From: Alphaproteobacteria bacterium
GTDB lineage: Bacteria > Pseudomonadota > Alphaproteobacteria > Oceanibaculales > Oceanibaculaceae
NCBI GenBank assembly: GCA_018823745.1
Contig: JAHJHR010000011.1
Span: forward strand, 293,802 to 357,801
Length of the DNA stretch: 64,000 nucleotides
Reading direction: 5' to 3'
The translations under genes and the position numbers were made by a program. The notes beneath the pieces are model-generated. The model saw only the letters and a list, made by a program, of their open reading frames with translations, was not told the DNA's origin and did no database searches. The first letter of the stretch is position 1; every line of letters starts with the position of its first letter. Of this stretch, positions 46,865-64,000 are shown piece after piece.

Positions 46865-48772
46865 ATGAGGAAAATCCAGCATCTGCACCGGCGTGGCGCA
46901 GCCTATTGGTGGCGTCGCCGGATGCCCGCCGATCCGGCGCGGCGTTTTCCTGATTTCATTGTACAATTAAGCCTGCGCACCAAGGATCGTCGGCAAGCCG
47001 TCCCCAGGGCGCGCTGGCTGACTTATATTACGGATGCGATGCTGATGGGCGTGGGAACAACATACCTGAAACCGAACGAGCTTCAGGCTCTGCTGCGCGA
47101 TTATCTGACCGCACGGCTCGTCTGGCTGGAAAACGAACTGACCGCCGATCCCACCGCAGAGGCAGTCCATGTCGAGCAACTGATCAGGGACATGAAGGAT
47201 GGTGTGCGCGATGCCCATCGCGCCTACCTGGCCGCTAGGGAGAACGAGTGGTCGGCCGAACAGGCAACTGAACTTCTGGGGCTGAGCGGCTACAAGCCGC
47301 CATACAGTGCCTATGTCATGAAGCAGGTCCAGAAACTGATTCATCAGGGCGAACGGGAAGCCTTCAGGACCATGGTGGCACGGCTGGAGGGCGCGCCCGG
47401 GGCAGAACCGGAACTGTCTGAGACGATCCTGCCGACCCAGGCGTTGCTCGAGCAGGGTCTTGTGGATTTCGGCGCAAGGCCGGCAGGCCCGCGCCGCTCG
47501 AATCGAGAGGCTGAGCAGCCCCATATCTCTCCGATTTCACAGTCTGGAGCCGCACGCGCCGCTGGCGTGACGTCGGTGACAAGTCAGCGAAAACGTCCGG
47601 CGACCGCAAAGCGGCAGGCCGCTAGTGCCAGCCGGAGCGTGATGGATATCTTCGAGGAATACGAAACCGAGCGCTCACGCTTCGGAAACTGGAGCGAGAA
47701 GACACGAATCCAGACTCGGCAGAGCCTGTCGCTGATGGCGGATTTCCTGGGCGACCTCCCCCCGCTGGACTACAGCCGGGCCGTGATGGTCGGGTTCAAG
47801 GCGAAGCTTCTGAAATTGCCGGCGGGCTACGGACAGGCGAAGGCCTATAAGGGACTGCGCGGTGATGCCCTTATCCAGAAGGGTCAGCAGCTAGGCGACA
47901 TTCCGGTCAGCGGAAAGACTCTGAACAGGCACCTTTCCGCTCTCTCGGCATTCTGGGACTGGCTCGTATCACACGATTATGCGGCGGAGAATCCGTTGAA
48001 GGGTCTTGGCGGAAAGAAACCGCCGGCACGGCGCGCCCGACTGAAGGCGAGGCGGGCAATCAGTGAAGGTGAAATCCGCACCCTTCTCACCTCGCCCGTC
48101 TATGCAGGCTGCCGGTCGGCTGGCCGGCGCACGCAGCCCGGCAGCGTGATCATCAAGGACGAACTTTTCTGGCTGCCACTGTTTGAGTTGTTAAATGGTC
48201 TGCGATTGAGCGAGATCGCCCAGGCCAGGACAGAAGACCTCATTTTCCTCGCCGATCACAATCACTGGTTCCTGCGAATCGAGGAAGGCGAAGGCCGGTC
48301 CGTCAAGACCGAGACCTCGCGCCGGCCTGTACCAGTTCACCCGGAAATCCTGCGGCGCGGATTCATCGATTTCGTTGAAGAGAAGCGCAAAGCCAGCACG
48401 GATGGACGGCTTTTCCCGAGGGGCTGGGGAAACAATGCGGCCTCACCGTCCGCCCCGGTCGGCAAGCTGATCAGCCGATACTTCGATGCCATCGGCATCG
48501 GCGCTTCGGGGGCAAAAAATCATGCGCTGCGACATAGTTTTGCAACGAAGCTCAAGGCACATGGCATCGATCCCCGTGTCCGATCACTACTCATGGGGCA
48601 TGAAGCAGTGGATGACTGGAACTGGGCGAATCGTGGCTCCGCAATGACGAAAACTTATGAGGAAGACACAGAAGAAGCCGTCTCGGGTGATTTGCGGTTG
48701 ATGATCGAGGCGATCAGGATGGTGGACTTTGAGAAGTTACTCAGCCAACCGGAAAAAAGTTCAGCTGCCTGA
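46865..48772 (+). CDS. Tyrosine site-specific integrase of the tRNA-Gln island
   Basis: 635 aa. The N-terminus (IQHLHRRGAAYWWRRRMP ... LSLRTKDRRQA) is the DUF6538-type arm-binding domain common in alphaproteobacterial island integrases. A SAM-like core-binding domain spans roughly 255-385 and the catalytic domain about 395-620. Catalytic residues: Arg in LLNGLRLSEIAQ, H-x-x-R in HALRHSFATKL, His in LLMGHEA, and the nucleophile Tyr in TKTYEED. A variable Arg/Ser/Ala linker lies at about 205-255. Directly downstream of its presumed target. Confidence 0.93.
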   Translation: MRKIQHLHRRGAAYWWRRRMPADPARRFPDFIVQLSLRTKDRRQAVPRARWLTYITDAMLMGVGTTYLKPNELQALLRDYLTARLVWLENELTADPTAEAVHVEQLIRDMKDGVRDAHRAYLAARENEWSAEQATELLGLSGYKPPYSAYVMKQVQKLIHQGEREAFRTMVARLEGAPGAEPELSETILPTQALLEQGLVDFGARPAGPRRSNREAEQPHISPISQSGAARAAGVTSVTSQRKRPATAKRQAASASRSVMDIFEEYETERSRFGNWSEKTRIQTRQSLSLMADFLGDLPPLDYSRAVMVGFKAKLLKLPAGYGQAKAYKGLRGDALIQKGQQLGDIPVSGKTLNRHLSALSAFWDWLVSHDYAAENPLKGLGGKKPPARRARLKARRAISEGEIRTLLTSPVYAGCRSAGRRTQPGSVIIKDELFWLPLFELLNGLRLSEIAQARTEDLIFLADHNHWFLRIEEGEGRSVKTETSRRPVPVHPEILRRGFIDFVEEKRKASTDGRLFPRGWGNNAASPSAPVGKLISRYFDAIGIGASGAKNHALRHSFATKLKAHGIDPRVRSLLMGHEAVDDWNWANRGSAMTKTYEEDTEEAVSGDLRLMIEAIRMVDFEKLLSQPEKSSAA

Positions 48773-48923
48773 GCATGCGTAATTTTTGAGGCATGAAGAC
48801 CATGACACGCTCAGTTTCCTGGCTGGACCTCCTCTCGGGTAGGGACAAGGTCCGCCTTTTGATGTGCTGGAAATAACTATCGAGCGCAGTAGAGTTTCGT
48901 AGAGCGGTCGCAAATGAGAAAAG

Positions 48924-50528
48924 CTATCTCTCCGGCCCGTCGCGACCCAGACTATGTTCACGCTGCGGCCTTTGGTGAGCGACGAGTTCATCTTGAGTTG
49001 CATACTGCAACGTCGCCCCACGATCTGACTGTCTTCGCATTTGATCCGCTAGCTCAGGTAATCCTGAAGCCTGGTCCCGTCCGACAAACACCTCCGTCTG
49101 GCCCCGTGCACGGGTCATGGCCACGTAGCTGGCGGCATCCCGCCAATGGTGGGTATGTAAAAGGTATGTCTGATCAAGGGTCTTGCCTTGTCCGCGATAG
49201 ATCGTGCCCGCGTAGCCAAGGTCGATATTCGTGAATTCTCGGGTGTCAAAGGTGATCATACGCCCCCTATCGGACCGAACCGTAACCCGATCGCCATCGA
49301 TGACCTCTACAGTTGCCAACGATCCAGCGTAAATGCCCTTCTGTTTCCACGTCCCCCGAAACGCAACCCGGTCGCCAGCGCCTACAGAAAGCGTTCCGCG
49401 CTCGGTTTCCAGAGTGATGCAATCCCGCACCCGACCGCGCGCGATTTCGATGGCCTGCATAGCGTCGTTGAGTTGCCGAACTTCGTCGTTCGTGTAGGCG
49501 AAGACAAAGCGCGTCCCTCGACCCGCCTCAGTATCGGCCTCCCAGCGCTCTAGGAGCGCCACACGAGCCGCTTCAAGATCATCGCGCCAATGGATCAGGC
49601 CGTGGGCGTCATAAGCCTCCAACCCCTCGCTGAATTGCCCTTCGGAAAAACCCCGGGACGCCTGCCGCGCCCACTCCTGATGTTGACGGCGAACAGAGGT
49701 TAAGGCGGCGCTGCCAACCCGCTCCCGAACTACGGAGAAGATGCCGCCGCGCTCGATGGAGGCCAGTTGGCGGTCATCACCGACAAGAACGAGTTTGGCG
49801 CCAGTATCAACGGCGAGTTGGGTGAGCGCATCGAGTCTCTGCGTGTCGAGCATTGCAGCCTCATCCACAACGATCAGTGATTTGGAAGCGACCTTTGCAT
49901 TCGCATGCTCCGGTGCATGATCGCGATACCAGAGAAGAGAATGCACGGTTGTTGCTCGCCCGAAACCGCTGTCGCGCAAATCTTGGGCCACGGCGTTTGT
50001 TGGCGCCAGTCCAATGACTTCATACCCATCCTTCTCAGCCACCTGTCGAATCGCAGATAGGGTATGGCTCTTGCCGGTCCCAGCACGGCCCTCCAGAATC
50101 TTCAAACACCCTGCATCCAATACATGGCGCATAGCATCAGTCTGTTCTTCATCGAGCGTCATGTTACGGGCAACGACACGGATAAACCGGATGCCGATTT
50201 CATGTTTACGAGAGGATTCCAAAGCGTCTGCACGCGCCACGATGGCTTTCTCCTGCGCGCGGATGGAACAAAGGGTCCAACCCACTTCCTCCTGCGTCAC
50301 AGAGTCATAGAGCCGAAGGGTATCGTCATGCGAAGCGATCGCTTCGACCAACGAGGCGGGAGTCGCAACGCCCTTGCTCAGAAAAGCCCGGTGAATTTCG
50401 CCTTCGGTCACGAACGACTGGGTGAGCAACAGGTCAGAAAACACCTCAATCGGGTCCAGCTCTGCGACCTTTTCAAGGATCAAATCCTGTGACGGATTGG
50501 CCTCTGCTCGAATAAGCTTCGCCTTCAT
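48924..50528 (-). pseudogene. TraA-type conjugative relaxase, helicase part only (N-terminus missing)
   Basis: About 534 aa resembling the C-terminal two thirds of Ti-type TraA relaxase-helicases. RecD-like motifs: Walker A GRAGTGKSHTLSAIR, VVDEAAMLD, VGDDRQLASIE, YRGQGKTLDQ and YVAMTRARG. The nicking MobA/MobL domain that should come first is absent. Homology stops at AKLIRA (near 50522), where an oppositely oriented coupling-protein fragment begins, so the gene was truncated by a rearrangement. The ORF start at 50609 uses antisense sequence of that neighbour. A helicase-like product could still be made from ATG 50528. Confidence 0.75.
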
Positions 50529-51726
50529 CGGCGGGCAGGGAAGCGGGAAGACCACAGCCCTGAAATTCATGCTGCGCCAGTTGATCGGCCGAAAGAAAAC
50601 GAAGATCATCCTGTTGGATCAAAAAGGCGACCTCACTGCGACATGGCCGGCGTCAGACGTTATCCTTTTCGCTCCCCATGACCGCCGCTCGCGCGCATGG
50701 GACATTGGAGCCGATGTGGCCGGCGAGATTGCAGCACAGGAATTTGCCGCAACGCTTATCCCAGCAGAAGGGGCGGAAACGGTCTGGCCACAAGGGGCTC
50801 GCCAGATCATTGAGGCCGTTGTAATCGCACTACAGCGCCAGCACGGCACGAACTGGGGATTTGCAGAGCTGCTGAATGCACTCCAGTCTCGCCCGGACCG
50901 TCTGCGGTCAATCGTTGCAAAGGTGCGCCCCGATGTACTTGCCTTTCTGAGTGTCGACGAAAAGGGGCAGTTTACACGCACTGCAATCGGCTACATCACC
51001 AACCTGCAAGCCGCCGCGATCCCGCTCCTGCGCCCGCTGGCACTCTCTTGGGGTACCGTCCCGAAATCGGCGCGCGTCTCACTGCGGTCTTGGCTCCATG
51101 GCAAGGGTCCAGCCGCCCAAACACTGATTCTGCAGAACAACACCGACTTTCCAACCATCAGCGCGGCCTGGATGCGGCAGGTTATCCAACGCCTCGTTCG
51201 GATCAGTGGCAGCTCGTCTTTCCCTGATGACCCGAACCGACGCATCTGGTTCATCCTAGACGAATTTCCGCAACTCGGTCACATGCCAGACCTTCTGCGC
51301 GTGCCGGAAACCCATAGATCGAAAGGGGCAACGCTGGTTCTGACCGCACAATCAATCAGCCAAGTCTACTCAATCTACGGGCGCGAGGATGGCGATACAC
51401 TCATCAATCTAATGCAGACCAAGATCATTCTGAAGCCCGGCCAGGGAAGCGATCTCGTCTCTCGCCTCAATGAATGGCTCGGGACGTTCCGCTGGCGCGA
51501 TCCCATGGAAAACGGTGTGACAGAAACCGGCCTTCGGGTGCCAATCAAAGAGCACGAGAGTAATCTACTCGAGCCTGTCTACCTGAACACTCTCGGTTCA
51601 AAGCCGGATGGTGTAAGCGGCTTGCTTCTAGGATTGGGGCCTGACGTCTTTCGAATTGAGTGGCCATATCAAGATTGGCCGGCTCAGAGGCCCGGCGTTT
51701 GCCTCGCTCCTTGGGCGAAAACATAG
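50524..51726 (+). pseudogene. Type IV coupling protein (TraD/TrwB-like), N-terminus missing
   Basis: About 400 aa of the ATPase of a conjugative coupling protein. Homology begins abruptly at its Walker A motif (FIGGQGSGKTTALKF) and includes ILLDQKGD, NTDFPTISAAW, Walker B IWFILDEFPQLGHM and VLTAQSISQVYSIYG. The N-terminal membrane helices that anchor such proteins are absent. The frame is open upstream to 50422, but those residues are antisense to the relaxase remnant. Together with that remnant it marks a decayed conjugative element. Confidence 0.75.
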
Positions 51727-52200: not shown

Positions 52201-53601
52201 TTATATTCGACGCCATCCCACCATGTGAGGGTGGACAATCTCATTACAAAATTGCCCGAAGCTCACAACGTTGGCGCGCCCTTCATATTCAGCTTCCTTC
52301 GACTTCGTCAGGCTTTCGGGGATGACGAGGTGCACGCCAAAGGAGGCCATGTCGTCGATGGCATTGCCTGCGATGTTCTCATCGACAGTTGTGAGGAACA
52401 GTCGGCGCGAGCCTTTCTCGCGCTCGACCTGTTTCCAGCGTTCGCGCAAGGTTGTCTTGGCGCTGAGAATCAGGCCCGTAGCGGCCGTCTCCTTGCCGCT
52501 GTCGATGAAGGCGAGTGATGGGAGAATGAAGTCGGGGCGTTTCTTTGCCTCGATGATGACCTGCTTTTCGAACGGGATGCCCCCGCCTGCGAGCATCGCC
52601 TCGATATGGTGTTCATAGGAGTAGCCCGCGCGCGATTTTCGCTGCTGGCTGGCTGAGAGCAAAAGCGCATCAATAGTCTGGTACTCATCGATCAGGCGGC
52701 GGATGACTTCCGATGCCGTGATGGTGCGCGCGGAGTTGCCGAGCACGATGCGCACGAGTTCGACCGAGCGTTCGCGCCTCTGGAATTCCCGGAAGAGGTC
52801 CCATTCGATCGAGCGGCTGATCTCACGCAGCGCGTCGCCGGGGGCTTCAAGGGTGAAGGGGTTGATGGATTCAAGGCCGCGCTTCTTGAGGAAGGCCGAC
52901 TGCGCCATGCGGGCAAGCTCGGCCGTCACTGGCATGGTGGCATTACAGGACGCGAATTGCCCAATCGTGCCGGCGAGCCAGGCCGCTATGACCTGCTCTG
53001 CGAAATCCAGCACCTTGTCGCGCTCGAGAGCCTTTCGCTCGGCGGGTTCAAAGATGCCGATTAGGAAGTCTGCGCCGAGATCGAAAAGCTCGGCGAGCAG
53101 TCCGGCATCGTCGCTGACCGAGTCGATGGTCATGCACTCAAAGGTGTGCTCGCCATTTCGGGTGACGCGGCCCATCACGAGGTAAGAGGCTGGCGAGAGA
53201 TCGATAAACGCTTCGCGCGGGATGCCGGTTACGTGCGTTTCCTGACTCTTGCTTCGGTAGTTCACAAGCCGTGACTTGCGTGTCTCCGAGACCTGAGGCC
53301 AGATCGTCTCAAAGAACCTCTCCCATATCTCGTCGGTCTTACCGTCGGTACGATCCTTCAGCTCAAGGGGCAGGAAGAAGCCGCCGTCGCGCGGCTCATG
53401 CGGAATGTAGACGCCCGCCTGATTGTTCATGCGCTTTCCCGGTACGGGCCGACCTTCACTGTCCTCCTTTTGCCGTGCCCAAAGGCGATCGTTGTTCGAG
53501 AGTTTCTTGATCAGGACCTGATCGGCCTTGACGAAAAGACGCGTAAGGAGATCGGCGTCAGCGCCTGATTGTTCGAAGGCGAATTCTGGCTGGCCGCTCA
53601 T
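52201..53601 (-). CDS. Type II restriction endonuclease, EcoRII-like
   Basis: 466 aa from the ATG at 53601. The C-terminal part matches the EcoRII catalytic domain: RAGYSYEHHIEAMLAGGG, KKRPDFILPS with the catalytic Asp, and LSAKTTLRERWKQV with the catalytic Lys. The N-terminal ~250 residues correspond to the effector-DNA binding region. EcoRII-type enzymes cut before CCWGG; the Dcm-like partner and vsr support that specificity, though it is inferred. It overlaps vsr by 4 bases. The ORF start at 53646 is rejected. Confidence 0.9.
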   Translation of the reverse strand: MSGQPEFAFEQSGADADLLTRLFVKADQVLIKKLSNNDRLWARQKEDSEGRPVPGKRMNNQAGVYIPHEPRDGGFFLPLELKDRTDGKTDEIWERFFETIWPQVSETRKSRLVNYRSKSQETHVTGIPREAFIDLSPASYLVMGRVTRNGEHTFECMTIDSVSDDAGLLAELFDLGADFLIGIFEPAERKALERDKVLDFAEQVIAAWLAGTIGQFASCNATMPVTAELARMAQSAFLKKRGLESINPFTLEAPGDALREISRSIEWDLFREFQRRERSVELVRIVLGNSARTITASEVIRRLIDEYQTIDALLLSASQQRKSRAGYSYEHHIEAMLAGGGIPFEKQVIIEAKKRPDFILPSLAFIDSGKETAATGLILSAKTTLRERWKQVEREKGSRRLFLTTVDENIAGNAIDDMASFGVHLVIPESLTKSKEAEYEGRANVVSFGQFCNEIVHPHMVGWRRI

Positions 53602-54053
53602 CGCGCGCCTTCGATTTCCAGGAAGGGTTCGGCGCTGCAAAGCCACTGTGCGATCCGGCCAATGACGTCATCGAGGGCCAAGCGTGTCCTGCCCTTAAGT
53701 GCGCACTCCCAGACGACAAGGAAGCGCCAGCTTTGCCTTGTGAGCTGTTCGCGCACGATCGCGTCGCGCTCGACATTGCGCGCTATCTTTTGTGACCAGA
53801 ACTCCGTGCGCGTCGATGGTATCTTGAAGAGGTGGCAATCGTGATGATGCCAGAAGCACCCGTTCACAAAGATCGCCGCGCGAAAGCGCGGGAGCACAAG
53901 ATCAGGTTTGCCGGGGACGTTGCCCACGTGCAGGCGAAAGCGAAATCCTCTAGCATGCAGCCCGCGCCGGATTGCCAGCTCAGGCTTCGTGTCCTTGCCC
54001 CTGATACCGGCCATCATCCGGCTGCGGGTCTGCTGGTCGACGACATCAGGCAA
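53598..54053 (-). CDS. vsr: Very short patch repair endonuclease, probable TTG start
   Basis: Nicks next to T:G mismatches produced when 5-methylcytosine deaminates at the methylase site; 151 aa from the TTG at 54053. That start gives [21 protein letters not shown], the family N-terminus; the ATG at 54101 lacks a ribosome site and adds 16 unmatched residues inside dcm. Catalytic residues: D51 (GKPDLVL), H69 region in [13 protein letters not shown], zinc-type Cys/His in the same stretch. Overlaps the methylase gene end by 8 bases and the endonuclease start by 4. Confidence 0.92.
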
Positions 54054-55293
54054 CCGCTTTGGCCTTTCTACGTACGGCAGGGCTTTCCTGCATCTCTTCA
54101 TTTATGAAAGGGGCCATGTGTTTAGCAACCGCCTCGACGACGGGCACGACCACCGCGTTGCCAAACTGGCGATAGGCCTGCGTATCCGAGACCGGGATTC
54201 TAAATTCCTGCTGCCCGGGTTTTTCAAAGCCCATGAGGCGCGCGCATTCGCGCGGAGTGAGGCGGCGCGGGTTCTTTTGCTTCTGGTTGATCAGAATCTC
54301 CGAGCCATCCTTGTGGTAACGGGCCGAGAGTGTGCGGGCAACATCCTTTGGTCCGAAGAGGCCGAAGCCGAAGCCGTTGCCTGCGAGGCGGTGCTTTTCG
54401 GCGTAGGCCTGAAGGTAGCCCCAGAGATGATCGGAAAGCGTGTAGCGATCCAGTACCTTGCCCGTCGTGCCGCCGATGAAGCGCTCATCAGGCTCTTCAC
54501 TACCGTCTTCAGGATGCAGGATGCTCGCAAGTGTGGGGGCGCCGAGCGCGTCCGGCAGAGCGAGAGTGCTCAGGTCAAAGTCGTTATCCTCGCGGAAGCC
54601 GACGATGAAGATGCGCTCGCGATGCTGGGGAACGAAGGCGCTCGCGTCGATAACGCGCGTCTGGACGTTGTAGCCCAGATCCTCTTTCAGCGTCGTCATG
54701 ATGATATCGAAGGTCCGGCCCTTGTCATGGCTCCTGAGATTCTTGACGTTCTCCAGAAGGAAGGCTTTGGGCCGGTGATGGCGGATGATGCGCGCCACAT
54801 CGAAGAACAGTGTTCCCTGCACATCGCACTGGAAGCCGTGAGGCCGTCCCAGTGAATTCTTCTTCGAGACGCCCGCGAGAGAGAAGGGTTGGCAAGGAAA
54901 GCCTGCGAGCAGCACGTCGTGCGCCGGTATAGCTTCCTCGGGAATTTTCGTGATGTCACCGGCGAGCTCGTGACCCATCGGGTAGTTCGCCCGGTAGGTT
55001 TCCTGGCTGAAGCGGTCCCACTCTGATGTGAAGACGCACTTGCCGCCGACGCTTTCGAAGCCCCGGCGCATGCCGCCGATACCGGCGAAGAGGTCGATAA
55101 AGATGAAGGGTGCACTCTGGCTACTGGAGACGCGCTCGGATGCCAGAAACTGCATGAGTTCAATGACGGGTTTGCGCGGGGCGGTCTCGCCGCGCTCCCA
55201 GCGGTAGACCGTCCGTTCATTAAAGCCCACGCGCTGCGCGGTTTCTTGCACTGTCAGCCCTGCCTTTTGTCTGAGCTGTGAGAATGTTTGCAT
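54046..55293 (-). CDS. dcm: DNA (cytosine-5) methyltransferase with N-terminal HTH, Dcm/M.EcoRII-M.SsoII type
   Basis: 415 aa. Residues 1-52 form an XRE-like HTH ([30 protein letters not shown]); then m5C motifs [31 protein letters not shown] with C134, [25 protein letters not shown] and [12 protein letters not shown]. The target domain text ([26 protein letters not shown] in parts) is of the CCWGG-methylating kind. In M.SsoII/M.EcoRII relatives the HTH represses the enzyme's own gene; a 15-bp palindrome 34 bases upstream of this start suggests the same. GGAG precedes the ATG at 55293. Confidence 0.95.
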
Positions 55294-55326
55294 GGATGGC
55301 TCCAAGATGAATCTCCGGGAATATTT

Positions 55327-55341
55327 ATGACATAATGTCAT
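55327..55341. promoter_or_regulatory. 15-bp palindromic operator upstream of the HTH-methyltransferase gene
   Basis: ATGACAT-A-ATGTCAT, a perfect inverted repeat. It keeps the GACA-N3-TGTC core that I recall for the regulatory site bound by M.SsoII/M.Ecl18kI. It lies in the leader of the methyltransferase gene, where binding would repress it. Confidence 0.7.
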
Positions 55342-55541
55342 GGGAACTTTTAAAGAACAACACAAAAGAACACAGAAGAATCACCAATAGAATCAATGCT
55401 CTATTCGTGCCGGCGGCGACGTTTCGGGCTCCCGCCAGAAAAGGCGGCTTTGCGAGGGTGCGTTGAGGGCGACAAGCCCCTTGTAAAGCCTCACAGTGGC
55501 GTACGTTATCCGATACATTTTTCATACATTTTGAAAATGTG

Positions 55542-55592: not shown

Positions 55593-55814
55593 ATGCGCAA
55601 CAAACGCCAGAAATTTGTAGAGCTTGCAGAGGCCCGTGTGAACAAGGCCATCAAGGACATGCAGCTGGTCGGGAACCTTTCGAACCGCAGTGCCTACGAG
55701 TTCACCGAAGGCGACGTGAAGAAGGTCTTCAGCGCATTGCAGAAGGCACTGGATTCCGCAAAGGGCAGGTTTAACAAGGATGGCGACAGTGGTGGGGGAG
55801 ATTTTCGTTTATGA
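55593..55814 (+). CDS. Small conserved-looking protein, first gene of the GHKL operon
   Basis: 73 aa from the ATG at 55593, which is preferred because GGAG sits at 55580-55583. Sequence: basic helical N-terminus (KFVELAEARVNKAIKDMQ), then GNLSNRSAYEFTEGDVKKVF and a charged helix. I recall similar short proteins beside ATP-binding genes in restriction or defence loci, but cannot name a family. The stop overlaps the GHKL gene start (ATGA), so it is a coupled component, perhaps a regulator or adaptor. Confidence 0.75.
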   Translation: MRNKRQKFVELAEARVNKAIKDMQLVGNLSNRSAYEFTEGDVKKVFSALQKALDSAKGRFNKDGDSGGGDFRL

Positions 55815-57721
55815 GTAATAGTGATTCGATTGGACTTGAGTTTTTGCTAAATGATGGTGGTGATGCTGAAGGGCTCGGTGACGCCGGCATCGAGACATTC
55901 CGTGACAAGCCATTTGCAGCAGTAGCGCGCGAGGCGAGCCAGAATAGTCGTGATGCGCGGCTCGACGACCAAGCGCCGGTTCTGATGACGTTTGATCAGA
56001 TCAGCGTGCCCTCGGATGAGTTTCCTTCCATCAAGAGCTTCAGAGATGCTGTTGCACGCTGCCTAGTCGAGGCCGAAAAGCTTGGCAATGAGAAGGATAT
56101 TGGCTTCTTCCGGCAGGCCTCAAAAGTTCTTGACGCGCCAGAAATTCGCATCATGCGGGTTGCGGACTTCAACACCAAAGGTGTTCCGGGCCCCTGCGTT
56201 AAGGGCCAACCGTTTCATACGCTCGCGAAGGCCGATGGCGTCAGCATCAAGCCTGACATCAACTCGGGTGGGTCATTTGGCATTGGAAAGAGCGCCGCCT
56301 CCGCCCTCTCGGACATCCAGACGGCGTTCTACTCGACGCTTTATTCCGACGATGAAGGAAGCCATGTTCTGTGCATGGGAAAGGCCCTGCTGATCTCACA
56401 TACGGGGGCTGACGGTCAGGAGCGCCGCCGCAAGGGTTATTGGGGCAAGAAGCAGGGTTTTCAGCCTCTCGACAATCCGAAGGACATTCCTGGGTGGCTG
56501 CTTCGAGAGAAGCAGGGAACGTCGATCTTCTCCGTCTGCGTACGGGAAAACCGCATCGACTGGCGCTACGAAATGGCCGCGGCGCTGCTCATCAATTTCT
56601 TCGCCGCGATCCAGCGGCAGGAAATGGAGTTCCAAATTGATAGTGGCGCAATCAAGATCAACAGAAATACGATTGAAGCACTATTCAATGACCTTGCCGT
56701 GAACGAAGCAGTCGACCAACTCAAGGCGCGGGATGCTTTCGATGTAGCGAGCCGGCTGTATGCGTGTCTCGTGGATCAGCAGGCGATTCTCAAAACCATC
56801 GAAGTTACCGGGCTTGGCGCCGTCAATCTGCGCATGGTCCTGCGCGAGAAGCTTGGTTACACGATCGGCATTATCCGCAATGGCATGTACATCACCGGCA
56901 ACTTCAAGAACTTCGGTGAGCCTTTCAAGCGCTTCCCGCTGCATCGCGATTTTGCTCTCGTCATTGAACCGGCGGGCACAAGTGAAGGCGAGTGGTTCAA
57001 GCGGCTTGAAAACCCGAGCCATGATGATCTCTCCGCCGAGCGGATTACTGATCCTGTCCTTCGCGAGCAGGGGCAGAGGCTCTTTGAAAAGCTTGCCGAC
57101 CGAATTCGCCGGTATATCCGTGAGATGGCAAAGTCCGAGCCGGGTGCATCGATGGAGCTTGAGGAGCTAAATGACTATTTTGCGTCAGAGGAGACGCAGA
57201 CCGAGGATGACCTTGGCACCGAGACCAATCCCAAGTCCCTTCGCCCGACGCCGTTAAACGTCGCGCCGCGAAAGCCGAAGCGGAGAGTGACAACGCCGCA
57301 CGGCGAGGACGATGACGTGCCCGTAATTGAGCCCCTTACAGATATCGAGCCTGATCCGAATCCTGATCTGGTCCGGCCGCCCGGGCCGCTGATCCGTAAA
57401 CGCAGGTCCTCAGAGCCCATCGACCTGCAAAATGAACGCAACCTCCTGCCCGAGCCCGCGAACCTCAAGCTGCGCAGGCTGATTTTTACATCGCCGGTCG
57501 AAGGCGACGTCAGCGTGAGCGTAGAAGCCTCAGGCTTGAGCGTACCTGATCGACTGGTTATCAGCAGTTCACAAACCGGTGTGCTCAATGCCGGCGACCT
57601 AGTCGTGGCATGCGGGAAGGGTGAGCGCATTTCCGTTGATGTCGAGTTTGACATCCCTTACGGCGGGCCCATTGATCTCAGCGCCGTATACCTGCATGAA
57701 GAGGAGGTCGAATCAGCATGA
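55811..57721 (+). CDS. GHKL-family ATPase of an uncharacterised four-gene operon
   Basis: 636 aa. N-box E41-x3-N45 (VAREASQNSRDAR), a degenerate G1-type motif around D119 (VADFNTKGVPG) and a G2-type GGSFGIGKSAAS at 153-162 indicate a Bergerat ATP site like MutL/MORC proteins. Residues about 460-550 are low-complexity, acidic and Pro-rich (a linker); the last ~90 residues look like a beta-sandwich. No PD-(D/E)xK core was seen, unlike the GHKL protein at 37190. Coupled to both neighbours by overlaps. Function unknown; the setting beside an EcoRII-type system suggests defence. Confidence 0.8.
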   Translation: MSNSDSIGLEFLLNDGGDAEGLGDAGIETFRDKPFAAVAREASQNSRDARLDDQAPVLMTFDQISVPSDEFPSIKSFRDAVARCLVEAEKLGNEKDIGFFRQASKVLDAPEIRIMRVADFNTKGVPGPCVKGQPFHTLAKADGVSIKPDINSGGSFGIGKSAASALSDIQTAFYSTLYSDDEGSHVLCMGKALLISHTGADGQERRRKGYWGKKQGFQPLDNPKDIPGWLLREKQGTSIFSVCVRENRIDWRYEMAAALLINFFAAIQRQEMEFQIDSGAIKINRNTIEALFNDLAVNEAVDQLKARDAFDVASRLYACLVDQQAILKTIEVTGLGAVNLRMVLREKLGYTIGIIRNGMYITGNFKNFGEPFKRFPLHRDFALVIEPAGTSEGEWFKRLENPSHDDLSAERITDPVLREQGQRLFEKLADRIRRYIREMAKSEPGASMELEELNDYFASEETQTEDDLGTETNPKSLRPTPLNVAPRKPKRRVTTPHGEDDDVPVIEPLTDIEPDPNPDLVRPPGPLIRKRRSSEPIDLQNERNLLPEPANLKLRRLIFTSPVEGDVSVSVEASGLSVPDRLVISSSQTGVLNAGDLVVACGKGERISVDVEFDIPYGGPIDLSAVYLHEEEVESA

Positions 57722-58548
57722 AGCTCGATGATTACATGCGCTATCCGCACCCGGTTCTCAGCGAGCTTTCAGGTGATTACACGACCGGAGAGTTTGTCTG
57801 TGGCTTTGAACAAAATCTGACGCCTGAAGGTGAACTGCGCCTCGTTGCTGATCTGCGTATCGACAGCGATGAGCTTGTGGACCTGATCCAGACCCAGGCA
57901 GCAGCGCCAGGCTATTTCGTCGTTTGCAGGCGAACCTACTTCAATCATTTGCAGGCAGCCTCACTGGGCCGCAGCGAGAAGTTTTTTGATGCAAGCAAGC
58001 TGTTCGGTGCGGTCACCATCCGGCCTGTCGTCTACACTCTGAGTAAGGTTGAAGGATACACAAGCCCTCTGATCAACGTTGAGTTCGGAGCCGCATCCAC
58101 AATCGGCAAGGGGGCGATCATCGCGCTGGGGCCGGAGTTCCGGTTCTCAATGGATCAGAAGAAGTACAAGCCCTTCGACAGCATCTTTGAGCTCGCGAGA
58201 AATGAGGAAGTACCCCTCAACACCTTCCGGGTGGACCATGATCAGGACAGGATTACCATTCTTGCCCGCGAGGAGACGTACAACTCCATCTCCTCTATCC
58301 GCGATATGAACCAGGGCAAGGACGTGGTTATGAACACCGTCTATCTGCCCGCTGTGGTCGAGGTAATATCGAGGCTGCAAACCGGGGGCATGAGCGTCGA
58401 GGGTCGGAAGTGGTATCGGATATTCAAGGCGAAGTGCGACGATCTGGGCGCGAACCCTGTTGATCCCGATGTGTCGCCCCTTGATCTTGCCCAGCAATTG
58501 CTGCGTAGACCGTTCGTAAAGACGATCGCGCTCATGGAGAGCTTCTGA
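57718..58548 (+). CDS. Unrecognised protein, third gene of the GHKL operon
   Basis: 276 aa, soluble, without signal peptide or membrane helix. It opens MKLDDYMRYPHPVLSELSGD. The composition is mixed alpha/beta; SMDQKKYKPFDSIFELARNEEV and the C-terminal LLRRPFVKTIALMESF are notable. No catalytic motif was identified. It overlaps the GHKL gene by 4 bases (ATGA) and the next gene by one base (TGATG), so its product is probably made in step with both. Confidence 0.75.
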   Translation: MKLDDYMRYPHPVLSELSGDYTTGEFVCGFEQNLTPEGELRLVADLRIDSDELVDLIQTQAAAPGYFVVCRRTYFNHLQAASLGRSEKFFDASKLFGAVTIRPVVYTLSKVEGYTSPLINVEFGAASTIGKGAIIALGPEFRFSMDQKKYKPFDSIFELARNEEVPLNTFRVDHDQDRITILAREETYNSISSIRDMNQGKDVVMNTVYLPAVVEVISRLQTGGMSVEGRKWYRIFKAKCDDLGANPVDPDVSPLDLAQQLLRRPFVKTIALMESF

Positions 58549-59291
58549 TGACACAGCCATTGCTCTATCTGTCGGACCGTGTGCTGGGTGAGCTTCGAAA
58601 GAACGTGGGTGTCAACCTCGATCGCTATCGCACCACCGGCTTTGCCGACCTCGCGGAGGAGCCCGGATGGGATATTCCGCTTGGCATAGAGTTCGATGGC
58701 ACAAGGCTCGCCACGCTCGACCAGTCAACGCCACAGAACATCGTCAGTGTCGATCTTCCCAACTCGATTATCGTCGGTGAGGCGATTTCGGGCCTTTCGC
58801 CCGCCATGGCGAACGAGGAGAGAGTCTGGACTAGGCTCTCGCATGTCGAGGCAATAGACTATTGTCGCGCGCGCTGGATTACAGGGCGTGAAGAGGCAAG
58901 GCACGAGAACCTGATCATCGATCACTTCTTTGCACCCACGCAGACTGGCATTCGTGACGATCATGCCCTTTCGCGTCTGTGGTGGAATTATCAGATAGCC
59001 AGAACCTGCATGCCGGAGGACGTTTCCGGCGCCTTAGCCATCATCATGAAGACGGCCGACATCAGGAGCAACTTCGTCGAGCGCATATGGATGACCAGCC
59101 GCAAGAATATTGCGGGTGCGGTTCTGCGTGCCATGAAATCGGATCTGTGGATTACTGCGAACGAAGCCAATTTTAGGATGTTCATGAAATCCTTGAACCG
59201 GCTGGGTGGTGGCGTGGTGTTCGAGGTTCTGGACACTGGCGAGACCGACGAGTTTGTCAGGCATTGCGCTGCTTATGCCAAAGCCGCGTAG
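58548..59291 (+). CDS. Possible DUF6339-like protein, last gene of the GHKL operon
   Basis: 247 aa starting LLYLSDRVLGELRKNVGVN, a helical soluble protein with LSRLWWNYQIARTCMP and a C-terminal half rich in helices (NFVERIWMTSRKNIAGAVLRA in parts). The beginning resembles what I remember as DUF6339, unverified. No nuclease or ATPase motif seen. One-base overlap with the preceding gene. Its role within the operon is unknown. Confidence 0.7.
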   Translation: MTQPLLYLSDRVLGELRKNVGVNLDRYRTTGFADLAEEPGWDIPLGIEFDGTRLATLDQSTPQNIVSVDLPNSIIVGEAISGLSPAMANEERVWTRLSHVEAIDYCRARWITGREEARHENLIIDHFFAPTQTGIRDDHALSRLWWNYQIARTCMPEDVSGALAIIMKTADIRSNFVERIWMTSRKNIAGAVLRAMKSDLWITANEANFRMFMKSLNRLGGGVVFEVLDTGETDEFVRHCAAYAKAA

Positions 59292-59506: not shown

Positions 59507-61108
59507 TCAATAAATGCCCGGAGTGAGGGCTCTAGGCTGACCTTGGTTGGCTCTCACCACAACGTCTGGTTTGAGGCAAGGCAAACTCTGTTTAAATTGT
59601 CGATATGAGGCCGCATTGCCGTCAGCACCGGGCCGGAAGCTGTCTGTCCGGTTCTGGCGATCCGCGAGCGGTAAGCCGCCGTTCTGACTCCGTCTTCGTT
59701 TCAGTCGTTCCCACCTAAGTTCAAAATCCCAGGAGTTGCCTTCCCTTTGCCGCGCCATCCGCTGCGCGACGCGACCCGATCCGCATGATCCGAGCGCCAT
59801 CCCCTCATCTGGCGACCAGACAACCACATCACGCGGCCGCCCTCGGAAGGGCTCACCCAGAAGGGCCAAGCCGTCGCGGAAAAGCGCATACTGGTAAGGC
59901 TCATCTACGTCGGCCCGAGCAATGCTATCTTCCGCGGAAAGTGAAAAGCCTGTTGGTTCGAAGGTTGGAAGCCTCATCGTTGCCGGCAGCCCCGCCGCTC
60001 GGCTGCGGATCGTATTGCTCAGCACGTTCAAGAATTCGCTTCCAGCTTTCTCCTCGATCGCGAACCAGCCGAAGTCAAAGCCAGGGTGGCGCGATGGCGA
60101 CAAACGTGCGCGCCCTGCAAGTCGCCACCACTCTGGATGATCGAAGGAATCGTCGATCCACCATGGAGGGCCGCCCGGCCGCAAAAGCCACGGAGGCACC
60201 GCCAAATAAGTTCTCCCTGCATAGCCGAATCGAAGAAACGGGACGTCATGTCGCTCAGGAGCTCGGGAGTCTGGCAAGCGGATCCAGTCGATCCAATTCG
60301 TTACCCCCGGCGCACCCATCAACAGAAAGTTCGAGCGGTGGGTCGCGAGCGCCATCGGCGCAGGCGTGCTTTCTGGAACTGCGCCTCTCTGCATGGTGCC
60401 TGGCGGCGGAGCTCGCTTTCGTGGCTTCGAGATCCGCGTCTCCGATACGGCCAAGAAGCTTCCGGCTACCGTTGGCTTCGCGCCGAATGCAATCGAATAG
60501 CCGTGGACCTCTCCGAATGGCGATGGTTTCGCGACGAAGGGCTTTACCTGCTTGACGTACTTTCTCTTCGCCGCGTTCGCTATCTTGGCAGCGCTCGCAT
60601 CTTTAGCGAGCGAACCGTGCGCCTCTGCGAGCACGACACCGTGGCCGGACGCGTTGCCACCTTCGTAGATGAAATCTGCATGGGGATCGAGCGACGACGA
60701 GAGGCACGCCGCGTTGGCCCGCCATGCGTAGCCGAGAGCGTCCATGTACAGGTGGGCAATCCCGGCACCGACTTTGGCCGCAAACTGCGATCCAGCAGTA
60801 TCCGCGAGGAATTTGAAATGAGATTCGAGCGCAAAGGCCGATCCATCCTGGAGCAAAGTTTCCAGTTCGATCAGAGCGCTTTTCTGCAATCCGTCGAGTA
60901 GGACGACGGGCGCATCATCCCAAGTTGTCGACGTCCTCGCGATGGCGGCGGCCAAGGCAATCGAATTGAAAGACAGGACCGGCTGCGCCGGCGGCGCCAC
61001 GAAATGCGGCGAGACCGGGCTTGGCACGTGGCCGTGCTTCGTATGCTTGGTCAAACCAATCAGCTTGGTCGACGTCCCCAGTCCGGCAGTCGTTACGCGC
61101 CCGCTCAT
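59507..61108 (-). CDS. Unknown protein coupled to a Gabija-like pair, degenerate nuclease-like signature
   Basis: 533 aa. The central text DFIYEGG (D145) ... GVVLAEAHGSLAKDAS (E162-A-H164) followed by AAKRKYVKQVKPF resembles a PD-(D/E)xK core in which the Lys is replaced by His. A Trp-rich block (PPWLLRPGGPPWWIDDSFDHPEWWRLAG) occurs near 310-340. The start overlaps the UvrD gene stop by 4 bases (ATGA), so the two are coupled. The last ~80 residues are Arg-rich and less protein-like. No family recognised; a third component of an OLD-UvrD defence system is the best guess. Confidence 0.7.
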   Translation of the reverse strand: MSGRVTTAGLGTSTKLIGLTKHTKHGHVPSPVSPHFVAPPAQPVLSFNSIALAAAIARTSTTWDDAPVVLLDGLQKSALIELETLLQDGSAFALESHFKFLADTAGSQFAAKVGAGIAHLYMDALGYAWRANAACLSSSLDPHADFIYEGGNASGHGVVLAEAHGSLAKDASAAKIANAAKRKYVKQVKPFVAKPSPFGEVHGYSIAFGAKPTVAGSFLAVSETRISKPRKRAPPPGTMQRGAVPESTPAPMALATHRSNFLLMGAPGVTNWIDWIRLPDSRAPERHDVPFLRFGYAGRTYLAVPPWLLRPGGPPWWIDDSFDHPEWWRLAGRARLSPSRHPGFDFGWFAIEEKAGSEFLNVLSNTIRSRAAGLPATMRLPTFEPTGFSLSAEDSIARADVDEPYQYALFRDGLALLGEPFRGRPRDVVVWSPDEGMALGSCGSGRVAQRMARQREGNSWDFELRWERLKRRRSQNGGLPLADRQNRTDSFRPGADGNAASYRQFKQSLPCLKPDVVVRANQGQPRALTPGIY

Positions 61109-63084
61109 TCCTTCGGCTCCGCGGCCTGCGCGACCAGGTCCACAAGTTTCCAGCCTTGGTCCGTGGCGGGGCCTATCAGGATCATCGCTTCGGATTTGCG
61201 CAACGCGAGCCCCAACAGCTCGCGCGGCCTGGTCACGCCGACGAAGACGTTAGTCGCGGCGGTGAGCCTTACCCCCGTAAAGAGCTCGTCGGTAACGCCG
61301 AACGCGCGTGGAAGCACCGCAGCCAGATCGATGCACTGCTCGTCCGCGCTATTGCCTTTCCAAATCTCGCTCTCAAGGACGAGAATGCCATCAACGCTCT
61401 TACCCTTGACCGAGTGGATCGACCCCAGCCGCAACGTGAGATCGTCGAATTGAACCTGCTTCGTGGAGCGGCGCTCGGGGTCGGCAAGATCGGCCTTCTG
61501 TTCGGCGACAAAGCTGCAAAAGTCCGCGATCTCGCCCTCGGAGCCCTGAGGAGCCGGACTGAACAGTGGTAGCAACGCTTCCATAAATGCCAACCATGCC
61601 GCCTCTTCCCACACTGCAGCGCCGGCAAGCACATGGTCCCGCAACAATCGACGTACAGTGCGTGGCAACCCGAGGTCGCGATGCGCCAGCGCCGCCCAGA
61701 CATTGTGCGCGGTGATCGGACGATCATTCGCCGCTTTCCAACCATGGGCCTGCGCCAGTCCCGACACCCCCGCGGCGAGCATCTCACTGACCTCTGCGGG
61801 CGGTCGCGCCGCGGCATAGTGCACGGCAGCCTTCTGAAGCTGCGGGCAAAAGAGATTCGCTTTTGATCGAGACCCGCCCTCACTGCGATATGCGGGATGA
61901 TAATCGACGAGACTTTTAGGCCGCCATGCCCCTTTCTTGCCGGCCAGATTGTGGCGCGACGCGACCGCCCAAACGTCGCGCGTGCTGCAATCGCCACCCC
62001 ACAGCGCGCGTGCTTCTTCGGCGAAGGCTCCGAGAACCATACCGATCGAAGCTTCATCGAACAGGAACATCACCCGCGACGCCGGCCGTGGGCCCAGCCC
62101 GACAATGGTCTGAGCCTGGCGCGCGGTTAGCCGGCTTGCAAAACTAGCGATCTCCCCGCCGAACCGGCGGCTAGTATCGAGAGGGATGCAGTCGGCGCCC
62201 GGCGTCCAATATGTCGGTGCAGCTCCATCGTCCTCGTATAGAGTCTGATTGCTGTCCCCAAGACGCTGGAACGCCGCCCCACCTTGCTTAAACACGTGTT
62301 CCAGCAGCCGGAGCTGGTCGCCATGCGTGTCCTGCGCCTCATCAAGAATGACGAGCGGAAACCGATCGCGAAGCCGTTCGGCCAGGCCCGGGTTTTCGCG
62401 GAGCGCACGCCACGCGAGCGCAGTCATGTCGGCATAGCGATATATCCCGCTCCTGACCATCGCGGCCTTGAGCTTTGATAGCGCCTTGCCGCAATCTGTA
62501 TCAGCACCGTGCTGACCCTTTCGCCGCTGCACTATCAGGCTTTCGGGTTCTTGCCATACGTCATCGAAGGCTGGATCGAGCGTGAGATTACCAACCCATT
62601 TGGCGACAGTTGCGCTGGCCCTCTCGGCTTGCTTTCTCAGTGCCCAGAACGACGGATAGCGCCGCAACGCCTCGGCCGCAAAAGCATCGTCGTCAATCTG
62701 GCGCACGTGCCAGCCCAAGCCTCGAAGATAGGGCAAGGCGAGATACTGGTTGATGAATGCCGTGACCGTGCCGGTGAAATGAGGATAGGCCATCAGCCGC
62801 GCCGCAGTCGGATGGCTGGCGATCAAATCTTCGACCTCGGTCCGCGCCGCGTTGGTGTGCGAGATGACGCATACGCCGCGCCTGCGGGTCGTCCAATTGC
62901 GCGACAGCAGCGCGAGCTTCGCCGCCAACAGTGTCGTCTTGCCGTTGCCGGGCGCGGCCTGCACGTCACAGGGAGCGGCCTTGGCCAAGAAGTCGATCTG
63001 GCTAGGATCGGTGAAATCGCAGCCGCCCAGCTCGTCACCAAGTTCAGCAAGCAGTTCAGGCGTGAGCGGCAGGATCTCGAACAT
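61105..63084 (-). CDS. UvrD/Rep-family helicase, GajB-like
   Basis: 659 aa, SF1A helicase. Walker A is AAPGNGKTTLLAAKL (43-50 core), motif Ia VCVISHTNAARTEVED, Walker B LVILDEAQDTHGDQL, motif III RLGDSNQTLY, motif IV LDTSRRFGG, motif V IHSVKGKSVDGILVLE and motif VI NVFVGVTRPRELL. The ATG at 63084 begins MFEILPLTPELL; the ORF start at 63186 overlaps the upstream gene and is rejected. It starts 4 bases after an OLD/TOPRIM nuclease gene, the order of Gabija GajA-GajB, although the protein is longer than classical GajB. Confidence 0.88.
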   Translation of the reverse strand: MFEILPLTPELLAELGDELGGCDFTDPSQIDFLAKAAPCDVQAAPGNGKTTLLAAKLALLSRNWTTRRRGVCVISHTNAARTEVEDLIASHPTAARLMAYPHFTGTVTAFINQYLALPYLRGLGWHVRQIDDDAFAAEALRRYPSFWALRKQAERASATVAKWVGNLTLDPAFDDVWQEPESLIVQRRKGQHGADTDCGKALSKLKAAMVRSGIYRYADMTALAWRALRENPGLAERLRDRFPLVILDEAQDTHGDQLRLLEHVFKQGGAAFQRLGDSNQTLYEDDGAAPTYWTPGADCIPLDTSRRFGGEIASFASRLTARQAQTIVGLGPRPASRVMFLFDEASIGMVLGAFAEEARALWGGDCSTRDVWAVASRHNLAGKKGAWRPKSLVDYHPAYRSEGGSRSKANLFCPQLQKAAVHYAAARPPAEVSEMLAAGVSGLAQAHGWKAANDRPITAHNVWAALAHRDLGLPRTVRRLLRDHVLAGAAVWEEAAWLAFMEALLPLFSPAPQGSEGEIADFCSFVAEQKADLADPERRSTKQVQFDDLTLRLGSIHSVKGKSVDGILVLESEIWKGNSADEQCIDLAAVLPRAFGVTDELFTGVRLTAATNVFVGVTRPRELLGLALRKSEAMILIGPATDQGWKLVDLVAQAAEPKE

Positions 63085-63088
63085 TGCG

Positions 63089-64000
63089 CTAAGCCCCCGC
63101 CGCCGCGGCGCCGTCCATTCCAGCGACGCCAGCCTCTTCGTCTTCCGGATCGGCAGCGATCGCCGGTGCCCCGGGGACATAGCCACCGGTCACGTAGTCG
63201 ATCGCGCGCACCAGATAGGGCGGGAGTCGATCACGCATCTGCTCCGGCGTATCGCTGCGCTTGCGCAGTATTGCGGCGAGTTGCTCGGCGACTTCGGCTT
63301 TGGAGGCCTCCTTGTCATGGACGGGCTGGTAGATCTTGACGGCAATCTCGGTCGCAGAGAGTCTCGCCTCTTTCCAATCCGCGTAGGTCTCGCTGGCCTT
63401 CTCCACAATCTTCGCAAGCCGCTCGGGCTTACGACTGCTGGTCTTTGCGAGTTGGACTGCCTGGTGAACGCTCTCGGCAAGCTCGGGCCGGAGCGCGAGA
63501 TCGAACTCAAGAGTCCAGCTATCAGCGATGAAAGCGTCGACAGGGTCTCCGGCGTCGCGCCGCAGCGTCTTCAGCCGCGCTGCGATGTCGTCCTGGGTCA
63601 ACTCGTTCTCGGTCTTGCGGTCGCCGACAAGGTCTTTCGCTTCGGGCGGCGGGATGTCCCTGTCGGGGATCAGCGCCACGGGCACCGGGATAGCGTTCCC
63701 GGCCTTACGCTGCAGAATCCGGCTGTAACGAAACAGACCACGGTGGCCGACATTGACGATCGACACGCCGTGACGGCTGAGCGGACGGTTGAGCTTCTCG
63801 GCGATTGCCGGCAGCAACAGATGCTCACCGTCGCCCTCGACGACAATCAGCGCGCGGGCGAAGAACAGGTTGGCCTTCGTCGCGTCGAGGAACCGACGAA
63901 GGAACTCATAATCGTCCACTTCGAGCCGGGTATGGGTCGCGCCCAGCGGAAAGGCGCGGTGGCCGACGATCATTGTCATGGTCTCAAGCTCGGCGCCGGC
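63089..64000 (-). CDS. OLD-family ATP-dependent nuclease, TOPRIM part (GajA-like), 5' end beyond window
   Basis: The frame is open to the right edge; 303 C-terminal residues are visible. They contain the TOPRIM motifs: IVVEGDGEHLLLPAIAEKLN with the catalytic Glu, VNVGHRGLFRYSRIL, and the metal-binding LIPDRDIPP (DxD). The preceding FLRRFLDATKANLFFARA is the usual link from the ABC-type ATPase half, which lies outside. The tail is Ala/Asp/Glu-rich low complexity. Followed after 4 bases by the UvrD-type gene; the pair resembles Gabija or class 2 OLD systems. Confidence 0.88.
   Translation of the reverse strand, partial: AGAELETMTMIVGHRAFPLGATHTRLEVDDYEFLRRFLDATKANLFFARALIVVEGDGEHLLLPAIAEKLNRPLSRHGVSIVNVGHRGLFRYSRILQRKAGNAIPVPVALIPDRDIPPPEAKDLVGDRKTENELTQDDIAARLKTLRRDAGDPVDAFIADSWTLEFDLALRPELAESVHQAVQLAKTSSRKPERLAKIVEKASETYADWKEARLSATEIAVKIYQPVHDKEASKAEVAEQLAAILRKRSDTPEQMRDRLPPYLVRAIDYVTGGYVPGAPAIAADPEDEEAGVAGMDGAAAAGA

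Follow-up and report, generated by a model that had tools for sequence, protein, structure and literature searches.

Does a gene that overlaps the end of a Gabija operon belong to Gabija? The question is raised by one end of the 64,000-nucleotide (nt) stretch of DNA analysed here ("the window", positions 293802–357801 of Alphaproteobacteria bacterium contig JAHJHR010000011.1), where a gene that we call X starts within the last codons of gajB, a UvrD-type helicase gene that itself follows gajA. Sequence comparison leads us to put at roughly 0.53 the probability that X is a portable accessory gene with a restriction-endonuclease-like domain, and not a fixed Gabija subunit. Across the loci compared, X follows unrelated genes of predicted anti-phage systems, often with its start coupled to their stop codon.

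The Gabija operon and gene X

The contig extends 1966 bases past the window end (extended read L002; other loci are likewise given L numbers). On the minus strand the operon reads abiEii, 24 nt, gajA, 4 nt, gajB, an ATGA overlap and X:

59507–59785, minus strand: read-through tail of gene X, residues 442–533, the usual family stop codon being lost
59786–61108, minus strand: homologous core of gene X, 441 amino acids (aa), with homologues in 34 genome-contig loci and on plasmids
61105–61108, minus strand: ATGA stop/start overlap of gajB and X, from the sequence
61105–63084, minus strand: gajB, superfamily 1 (SF1) UvrD-type helicase, 659 aa from the likely ATG (PADLOC and Pfam profiles)
63089–64000 and on to the equivalent of 65041, minus strand: 3′ part of gajA, OLD-type ATPase/TOPRIM nuclease (PADLOC GajA)
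equivalent of 65066–65965 (in L002), minus strand: abiEii, its 5′ end cut by the contig end (PF08843)

Reading on beyond 64000, as the preliminary description of this DNA had advised, completed gajA at 650 aa (start at the equivalent of 65041) and uncovered abiEii further upstream (PF08843 match at 3.5e-40), which ends 24 nt before gajA. The part of GajA inside the window matches PADLOC PDLC00096 (9.2e-77) and Pfam PF20469 (TOPRIM, OLD-like; 9.6e-14); the PADLOC match covers the TOPRIM half, and the ATPase half is visible through weak SMC-type and related matches only. GajB matches PADLOC PDLC00147 almost over its full length (4.5e-119, residues 52–684 of a 693-aa reading) and Pfam UvrD-helicase (1.4e-18). 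The helicase had been thought unusually long, but this depended on the 693-aa reading from a GTG at 63186, which overlaps gajA by 98 nt; the likely ATG at 63084, 4 nt past the gajA stop, gives a usual length of 659 aa (the open reading frames of L016 and L028 have 663 and 659 aa, and the PADLOC GajB profile lengths shown are 382–738). Since both proteins match the PADLOC models, with an OLD-type ATPase and TOPRIM domain in GajA and a UvrD-like GajB immediately 3′ of gajA, the pair is called Gabija, as the TOPRIM-UvrD order had already suggested, and by profile it is an ordinary one.

The third gene had been described as encoding 533 aa. Its open frame (59507–61108, minus strand) and ATGA overlap are as reported, but intact homologues stop at about 430–454 aa, and close ones at 441–443 aa. 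In the window the usual stop is lost and the frame continues for ~91 codons into sequence without homologues; residues 442–533 are therefore a read-through tail. DNA homology of this copy to L014, L015, L016 and L020 ends about 17–25 nt beyond the usual stop, and the copy may have suffered damage at its edge, though the 441-residue core is open. X matched no model in Pfam (up to E 0.1), PADLOC, NCBIfam or PHROGs, and a search of mainly open literature (titles and abstract starts) gave no paper about it.

Distribution of X and its upstream partners

A pattern scan of genome contigs gave 70 candidate stretches and, from these, 34 X loci; tblastn of 72,556 plasmids gave 11 X records (five of the close clade, five distant and one short fragment). 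Profile hidden Markov model searches matched 4 of 385 genomes of the class, three of them X-clade (the window's own and one of the same genus included), and 3 of 398 genomes of the phylum, among which only the window's own is X-clade; G071 matched at 2.4e-4 in the latter search. The 42 X-clade loci considered below are the window, L004, L005–L009, L014–L047 and L050; L013, a 77-residue match, was kept out. Where the organism is named the hosts are Alphaproteobacteria, the exception being L040, a contig of Burkholderia multivorans in which X is frameshifted; the records of L021 and L045 say no more than "Proteobacteria bacterium", and the genomes of L004 and L050 belong to the window's class. 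A viral origin of X was considered and rejected: none of 166 pattern stretches from viral contigs was confirmed as a relative, and PHROGs gave no match for the four proteins put to it.

A partner gene lies on the same strand at most 250 nt upstream of X in 30 of the 42 loci:

GajB of the window's subfamily, same strand, seven loci: window, L016, L017, L018, L019, L026, L028 (profile or sequence)
Operon of methyltransferase, LmuB-like and HNH genes, same strand, four loci: L014, L015, L020, L044 (L014 proteins by profile)
Gabija of another subfamily, same strand, one locus: L024 (PDLC00100, PDLC00149)
AbiEi-AbiEii, same strand, three loci: L006, L031, L047 (L047 being fragmentary, at a contig end)
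168-aa gene with an RNAVVH motif, same strand, eight loci: L005, L007, L008, L029, L030, L033, L036, L038 (motif; no profile match)
DISARM DrmA-DrmB, same strand, two loci: L042 (by profile), L043 (by equal gene lengths)
KAP NTPase, same strand, one locus: L025 (PDC-S49)
DUF4917 gene, same strand, one locus: L041 (PDC-S21)
GmrSD_C-like gene, same strand, one locus: L046 (sub-threshold match)
236-aa gene with RCNLFH (RxxxxH), same strand, one locus: L039 (motif; no profile match)
554-aa gene, same strand, one locus: L032 (membrane-anchored by eye; no profile match)

In the first group abiEi and abiEii precede gajA in L016–L019 and L026 (interrupted in L017), and L028 has a mere scrap of abiEii there. 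The methyltransferase of the second group is DrmMI/Eco57I-like and very large (1464–1615 aa); profile libraries were applied only to the L014 proteins (operon at L014:1572–8879), to which the L044 methyltransferase, LmuB-like and HNH proteins are 52, 33 and 52% identical, L044 having an extra 240-aa gene before X. The methyltransferases of L020 and L014 share ~50% identity, the other two operon proteins 95–96%. We take the 168-aa RNAVVH gene to be HEPN-like. A TrlF/Ppl-like ATPase gene lies 3′ of X in L005, L008 and L033, and a 54-residue scrap of one in L036 and L038; L005:8472–13359 and its relatives are a Rhizobiaceae plasmid cassette of small HEPN-like gene, X and TrlF/Ppl-like ATPase. Other genes found 3′ of X are of SIR2 type (L042) and a PD-Lambda-5 gene (L023).

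X overlaps its partner in the GajB, AbiEii, KAP, L032 and L039 loci. The gap is 20–26 nt in the HEPN-like group, 55 nt in the DISARM loci, 83 nt in L041 and 119–249 nt in L014, L015, L020, L024, L044 and L046. Because X opens with Met-Ser, Met-Thr or Met-Asn in most copies, its start nearly always reads NTGA; a stop codon is thus built into it, and very different genes can end flush against X. Upstream frames of more than 140 codons end at the X start in 16 loci (window, L006, L016–L019, L021, L022, L025, L026, L028, L031, L032, L037, L039 and L047), that of L037 corresponding to no recognised gene.

Is X tied to Gabija?

The gajA-gajB-X order is more than a chance arrangement, as it recurs in six further loci (L016–L019, L026 and L028), whose X and GajB are 83–94% identical to the window's. 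A survey of such triplets, which the preliminary description had proposed, thus finds them stop-start coupled in one lineage (seven loci), but X is not generally conserved with the pair. Thirty-five of the 42 X-clade loci lack GajB of the window's subfamily before X; 23 of these have another upstream partner, and four (L014, L015, L020 and L021) retain gajB scraps only. Searches that started from GajB matched three of the 385 genomes of the class (E ≤ 1e-30; the window's own included) and 45 plasmid records, with no overlap between the 40 accessions listed for the latter and the 11 X records. X is absent from the DNA read at all six GajB loci found in this way, the four best plasmid loci and two genome loci (flanks of ~1.5 kb each). 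GajB identity to the window is 83% in L059, 62% in L060, 59% in L061, 49% in L062 and 31–32% in the two genome loci; L059 (Ensifer), whose GajA is 93% identical, is the closest GajB locus without X. In G380, X (L050) and a distant GajB lie ~11 kb apart on the same contig.

The preliminary description had offered a three-component Gabija variant, and one might hold that X is its true third subunit, the other occurrences being co-option or paralogy. Order and overlap are indeed kept in seven loci at the identities given above, and L059 and L061 each have a gajB broken up between frames; both may be decayed loci, and the control is therefore weakened. The nearest X relatives (L014, L015 and L020, 84–90% identical) nevertheless hold gajB scraps and no Gabija, L060 and L062 have full-length matches to gajA and gajB but no X, and L028 has a frameshifted X while its gajA and gajB are open. 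Because X has a different upstream setting in 35 of 42 loci, and the independent GajB loci lack it, X as a dedicated Gabija subunit is not accepted as a general reading. That proposal had been made to depend on conservation of the third gene with the pair, and by this measure the dedicated-subunit version is weak; even with co-option or paralogy allowed for, a true third subunit seems to us very unlikely. A facultative X add-on to Gabija is possible.

Exchange of partners and selection on X

DNA homology between the window and either L014 or L020 begins 22 nt before the X start, within the gajB 3′ end; with L021 it begins 38 nt before, and with L015 156 nt before, inside the end of gajB, where an open frame of L015 specifies a 52-residue stretch with 90% identity to the end of GajB. 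These junctions indicate that X with a scrap of gajB now stands behind other cargo, the upstream partners having been exchanged and X and its 3′ flank kept; the junctions would fit movement of either side, and the tree is blind to gain versus loss. The maximum-likelihood tree of X (43 rows; L013, L045 and L047 left out, the truncated L028, L040 and L012 included) interleaves the Gabija and methyltransferase partner types. The methyltransferase group requires three changes, all forced by starred branches; the window pairs with L014 (97/94) and L019 with L020 (96/87). As L014 and L020 have the same junction and different places in the tree, the exchange may partly be recombination within X.

The ratio of nonsynonymous to synonymous substitution rates (dN/dS) of X is 0.12–0.26 in 17 of 17 pairs computed (0.12–0.17 for the window core against L014, L015 and L016), which shows purifying selection across varied operon settings. 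For gajA it is 0.06–0.11 in four of four pairs, so X is less constrained than gajA.

Predicted structure and active site of X

The N-terminal, restriction-endonuclease-like region of X carries D103, D145, E162, H164, K183 and Q187. In an alignment of 30 homologues (excluding L015, L028, L040, L045 and L047, the last four broken or short, and L004–L009 and L050) D145, E162, K183, Y184 and Q187 are invariant. D145, E162 and H164 had been picked out from the window alone, and the first two are also kept in four aligned distant relatives. At position 164, 26 homologues have His and four have Arg, never the usual E-x-K lysine. The C-terminal part (about residues 246–441) is conserved, and the Trp-rich block seen earlier is real, at about residues 317–335, and partly conserved.

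An AlphaFold2 model of the 441-residue X, built from 30 sequences (predicted template modelling score, pTM, 0.83; mean predicted local distance difference test, pLDDT, 75), has a helix at 103–125, strands at 127–132, 145–150 and 159–166, a helix at 173–192 and strands at 202–209 and 218–224. This alpha-beta-beta-beta-alpha-beta order within the N-terminal ~230 residues is the one expected of a restriction-endonuclease core, and the model thus bears out in part a PD-(D/E)xK-type pattern: D145 and E162 would be the metal-binding Asp/Glu on neighbouring core strands. As none of the 30 aligned homologues has a lysine two residues past the Glu, X is not filed as a PD-(D/E)xK member. The fold prediction suggested beforehand gives a core of the right order but weak structure matches (Z below 5). 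In the comparison of the N-domain every one of 26 rows has Z below 4, and 25 of them we take to be restriction-endonuclease-fold proteins. A sequence search of X against solved structures returned two matches (E 0.094 and 0.47), regarded as noise. The pLDDT is low near 141–143 and 152–156, and the catalytic hairpin comes out worse when the N-domain is folded alone than in the whole-protein model.

E-x-K is retained in the distant relatives L010, L011, L012, L055, L068 and L069 (the last two aligned by eye), all six of which are without lysine at 183 (L055, L068 and L069 judged by eye), a pattern that would suit a moved lysine. Our guess is that K183, in the next helix, might be the lysine moved from the E-x-K strand; a literature search on such migration returned unrelated papers only. 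X most probably has a nuclease-like action on DNA. Some of the distant relatives, too, have defence-like or effector-like neighbours: L055 sits between an SNF2/NOV_C helicase gene (4-nt overlap) and a gene resembling a DUF1156-type methyltransferase (by eye). L010 and L012 adjoin patatin-like genes (by eye; annotation), L011 lies near a DUF2235 gene (annotation), L068 adjoins a gene with a sub-threshold trypsin-like match and L069 a DUF2235-like gene (by eye); a further one, L067 (Pantoea), has no defence neighbour in its annotation.

The altered lysine position invites another explanation: a nuclease-like protein without catalysis, X would bind DNA or its partner and serve as a regulator or restraint, keeping toxic effectors (AbiEii, HEPN-like, KAP, Gabija) in check or repressing its operon. 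His or Arg in place of the lysine in all 30 homologues (26 and 4) would suit this, as would the presence of a known toxin family (AbiEii, PF08843) among the partners and the 3′-terminal position of X, overlapping the partner's stop in many loci. A scaffold alone, however, has no obvious need of D145, E162, Q187 and the new invariant K183, all of which are retained. In L022 X is on its own after guaA, and in L004, L034, L035 and L037 no partner is recognised; AbiE already possesses AbiEi; and gajA and gajB of L028 are open despite a frameshifted X (a sequencing error in this metagenome-assembled genome is possible). We consider a dead regulator unlikely.

Mobile setting of X

In eight loci (L014 and L016–L022) the guaA 3′ end (ATCGAGTGGGA and near forms) recurs as a copy 243–276 nt past the X stop, and homology between loci ends there; L015, L026 and L028 have imperfect forms at the corresponding place. 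Both guaA-type ends are present in L017, 10.4 kb apart (L017:148–10602), in an element that holds a short tyrosine integrase frame, a TIR gene, abiEi, abiEii, gajA, gajB and X. Here abiEii, gajA and gajB are interrupted and X is open; L028 (9001–10270) is the opposite, with X frameshifted and gajA and gajB open. In L022 (8963–10542) X alone lies between two guaA 3′ copies, with a GTG start that overlaps the stop of guaA, and this minimal unit may be expressed together with guaA.

From these elements one could argue that X is a mobile-element gene, concerned with maintenance, exclusion of rivals or end recombination, that uses upstream operons as promoters, so that the defence cargo is incidental. 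The guaA copy downstream of X in eight loci and the lone X of L022 agree with this, and close X genes are common to elements with different cargo. But no guaA 3′ copy occurs within the DNA read at the HEPN-like, AbiE-only, DISARM and KAP loci, where X still stands behind defence or defence-like genes, and the window X is not at guaA: the guaA gene (40588–42135) is uninterrupted there, and the island is found on the far side of ppx (read by eye). A purely element-serving X is, in our judgement, decidedly unlikely.

A tyrosine recombinase gene (46865–48772) next to ppx adjoins the window's island, and 46865–51726, where the recombinase is followed by conjugation-gene remnants (TraA-helicase-like and VirD4-like, by eye), is apparently the left end of this defence island. 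Other features of the window are:

37190–40245, minus strand, right after guaA: Dcm-like methyltransferase (by eye) together with a HATPase protein of 666 aa, whose match to Shedu SduA_C is weak and sub-threshold; a candidate defence pair at the guaA 3′ end
52201–55365, minus strand: EcoRII-C type restriction enzyme, Vsr and a C5-methyltransferase with an N-terminal helix-turn-helix; a complete-looking restriction-modification set
55811–59291, plus strand: three consecutive genes, PADLOC candidate PDC-M33 A, B and C, C also being DUF6339

Proposed role of X

As a portable accessory gene, X would be co-expressed from whichever operon precedes it and would supply a second, largely partner-independent activity directed at DNA, either cleavage or the binding of ends or structures; the carrying element would thereby stop a wider range of phages or plasmids. 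The window X would ride on an AbiE-Gabija cassette, close relatives of which lie in elements at guaA. A bolder version, in which X is a system-independent immune add-on that plugs physically or functionally into many anti-phage machines, its NTGA stop-start joining almost any operon and its lysine moved to the following helix, we hold to be rather doubtful.

A number of observations weigh against the portable-gene reading. Ten of the 42 loci are without a clear partner (L004, L009, L023, L027, L034, L035, L037, L040, L045 and L050; in L035 ~350 nt upstream of X were available), and non-defence genes lie upstream in L021 (where a GntR gene is joined to a remnant of gajB) and L022 (guaA). Eleven of the 30 partners (the eight HEPN-like genes and those of L039, L032 and L046) are identified by a motif or a sub-threshold match or have no profile match. 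The survey was seeded with X patterns, so that the enrichment in defence genes is a count and not a test against random island genes. Spacing between X and partner is tight in only part of the loci, and the ATGA overlap is in part intrinsic to X: of the 37 starts looked at, 34 have NTGA (at L027 and L046, two of the three that differ, the position has no start codon), and with a built-in stop overlap alone is no proof of selected coupling. The dN/dS of pairs with the X-alone locus L022 (0.20–0.23) also includes the partners' branches. As to the protein, the catalytic hairpin is poorly modelled in the N-domain, structure matches are weak (best Z 4.9 for whole X and 3.8 for the N-domain; best Foldseek E 0.31), the exchange of K164 for K183 may be a single event, and loss of the E-x-K lysine may mean that there is no catalysis.

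Should X strengthen the protection that unrelated systems give, it would act as a portable booster of immunity in bacteria and would show that defence operons are assembled from interchangeable single genes by swaps still legible in the DNA. With the same X behind Gabija, AbiE and DISARM and alone, the gain of accessory subunits by defence systems becomes testable. "Three-gene variants" of known systems should not be named from a single locus.

Comparison with known systems

The window's system agrees with Gabija in both genes, their order and their domain make-up, and differs in that X follows and abiEii precedes; titles and abstract starts of the Gabija literature, and passages of PMC10952713 and PMC12407980, mention no third gene. 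With the PD-(D/E)xK superfamily X shares D145 and E162 on adjacent strands, the order of strands and helices, Q187 and weak matches that are mostly to this fold, but it has His or Arg where Lys follows E-x, and K183 is invariant instead.

ShdA of Shield, a protein with an RmuC domain, occurs as a core alone, with helper genes or within DISARM-like loci (PMC10270631). As portrayed in the passages concerned, it resembles X in being a single protein of DNA-acting type found both alone and embedded in another defence operon, whereas the partners of X are more varied and their exchange is visible in the DNA; no RmuC domain was found in X, which has no Pfam family up to E 0.1. The nuclease NucC is common to CBASS and type III CRISPR-Cas (PMC10952713), and by that account it likewise is one nuclease serving unrelated defence systems; it differs in being triggered by a cyclic second messenger, while X stands behind operons with an effector of their own. 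As far as these passages go, NucC and ShdA are precedents for one protein serving several systems, and what is new here is the range of partners and the swaps that can still be seen.

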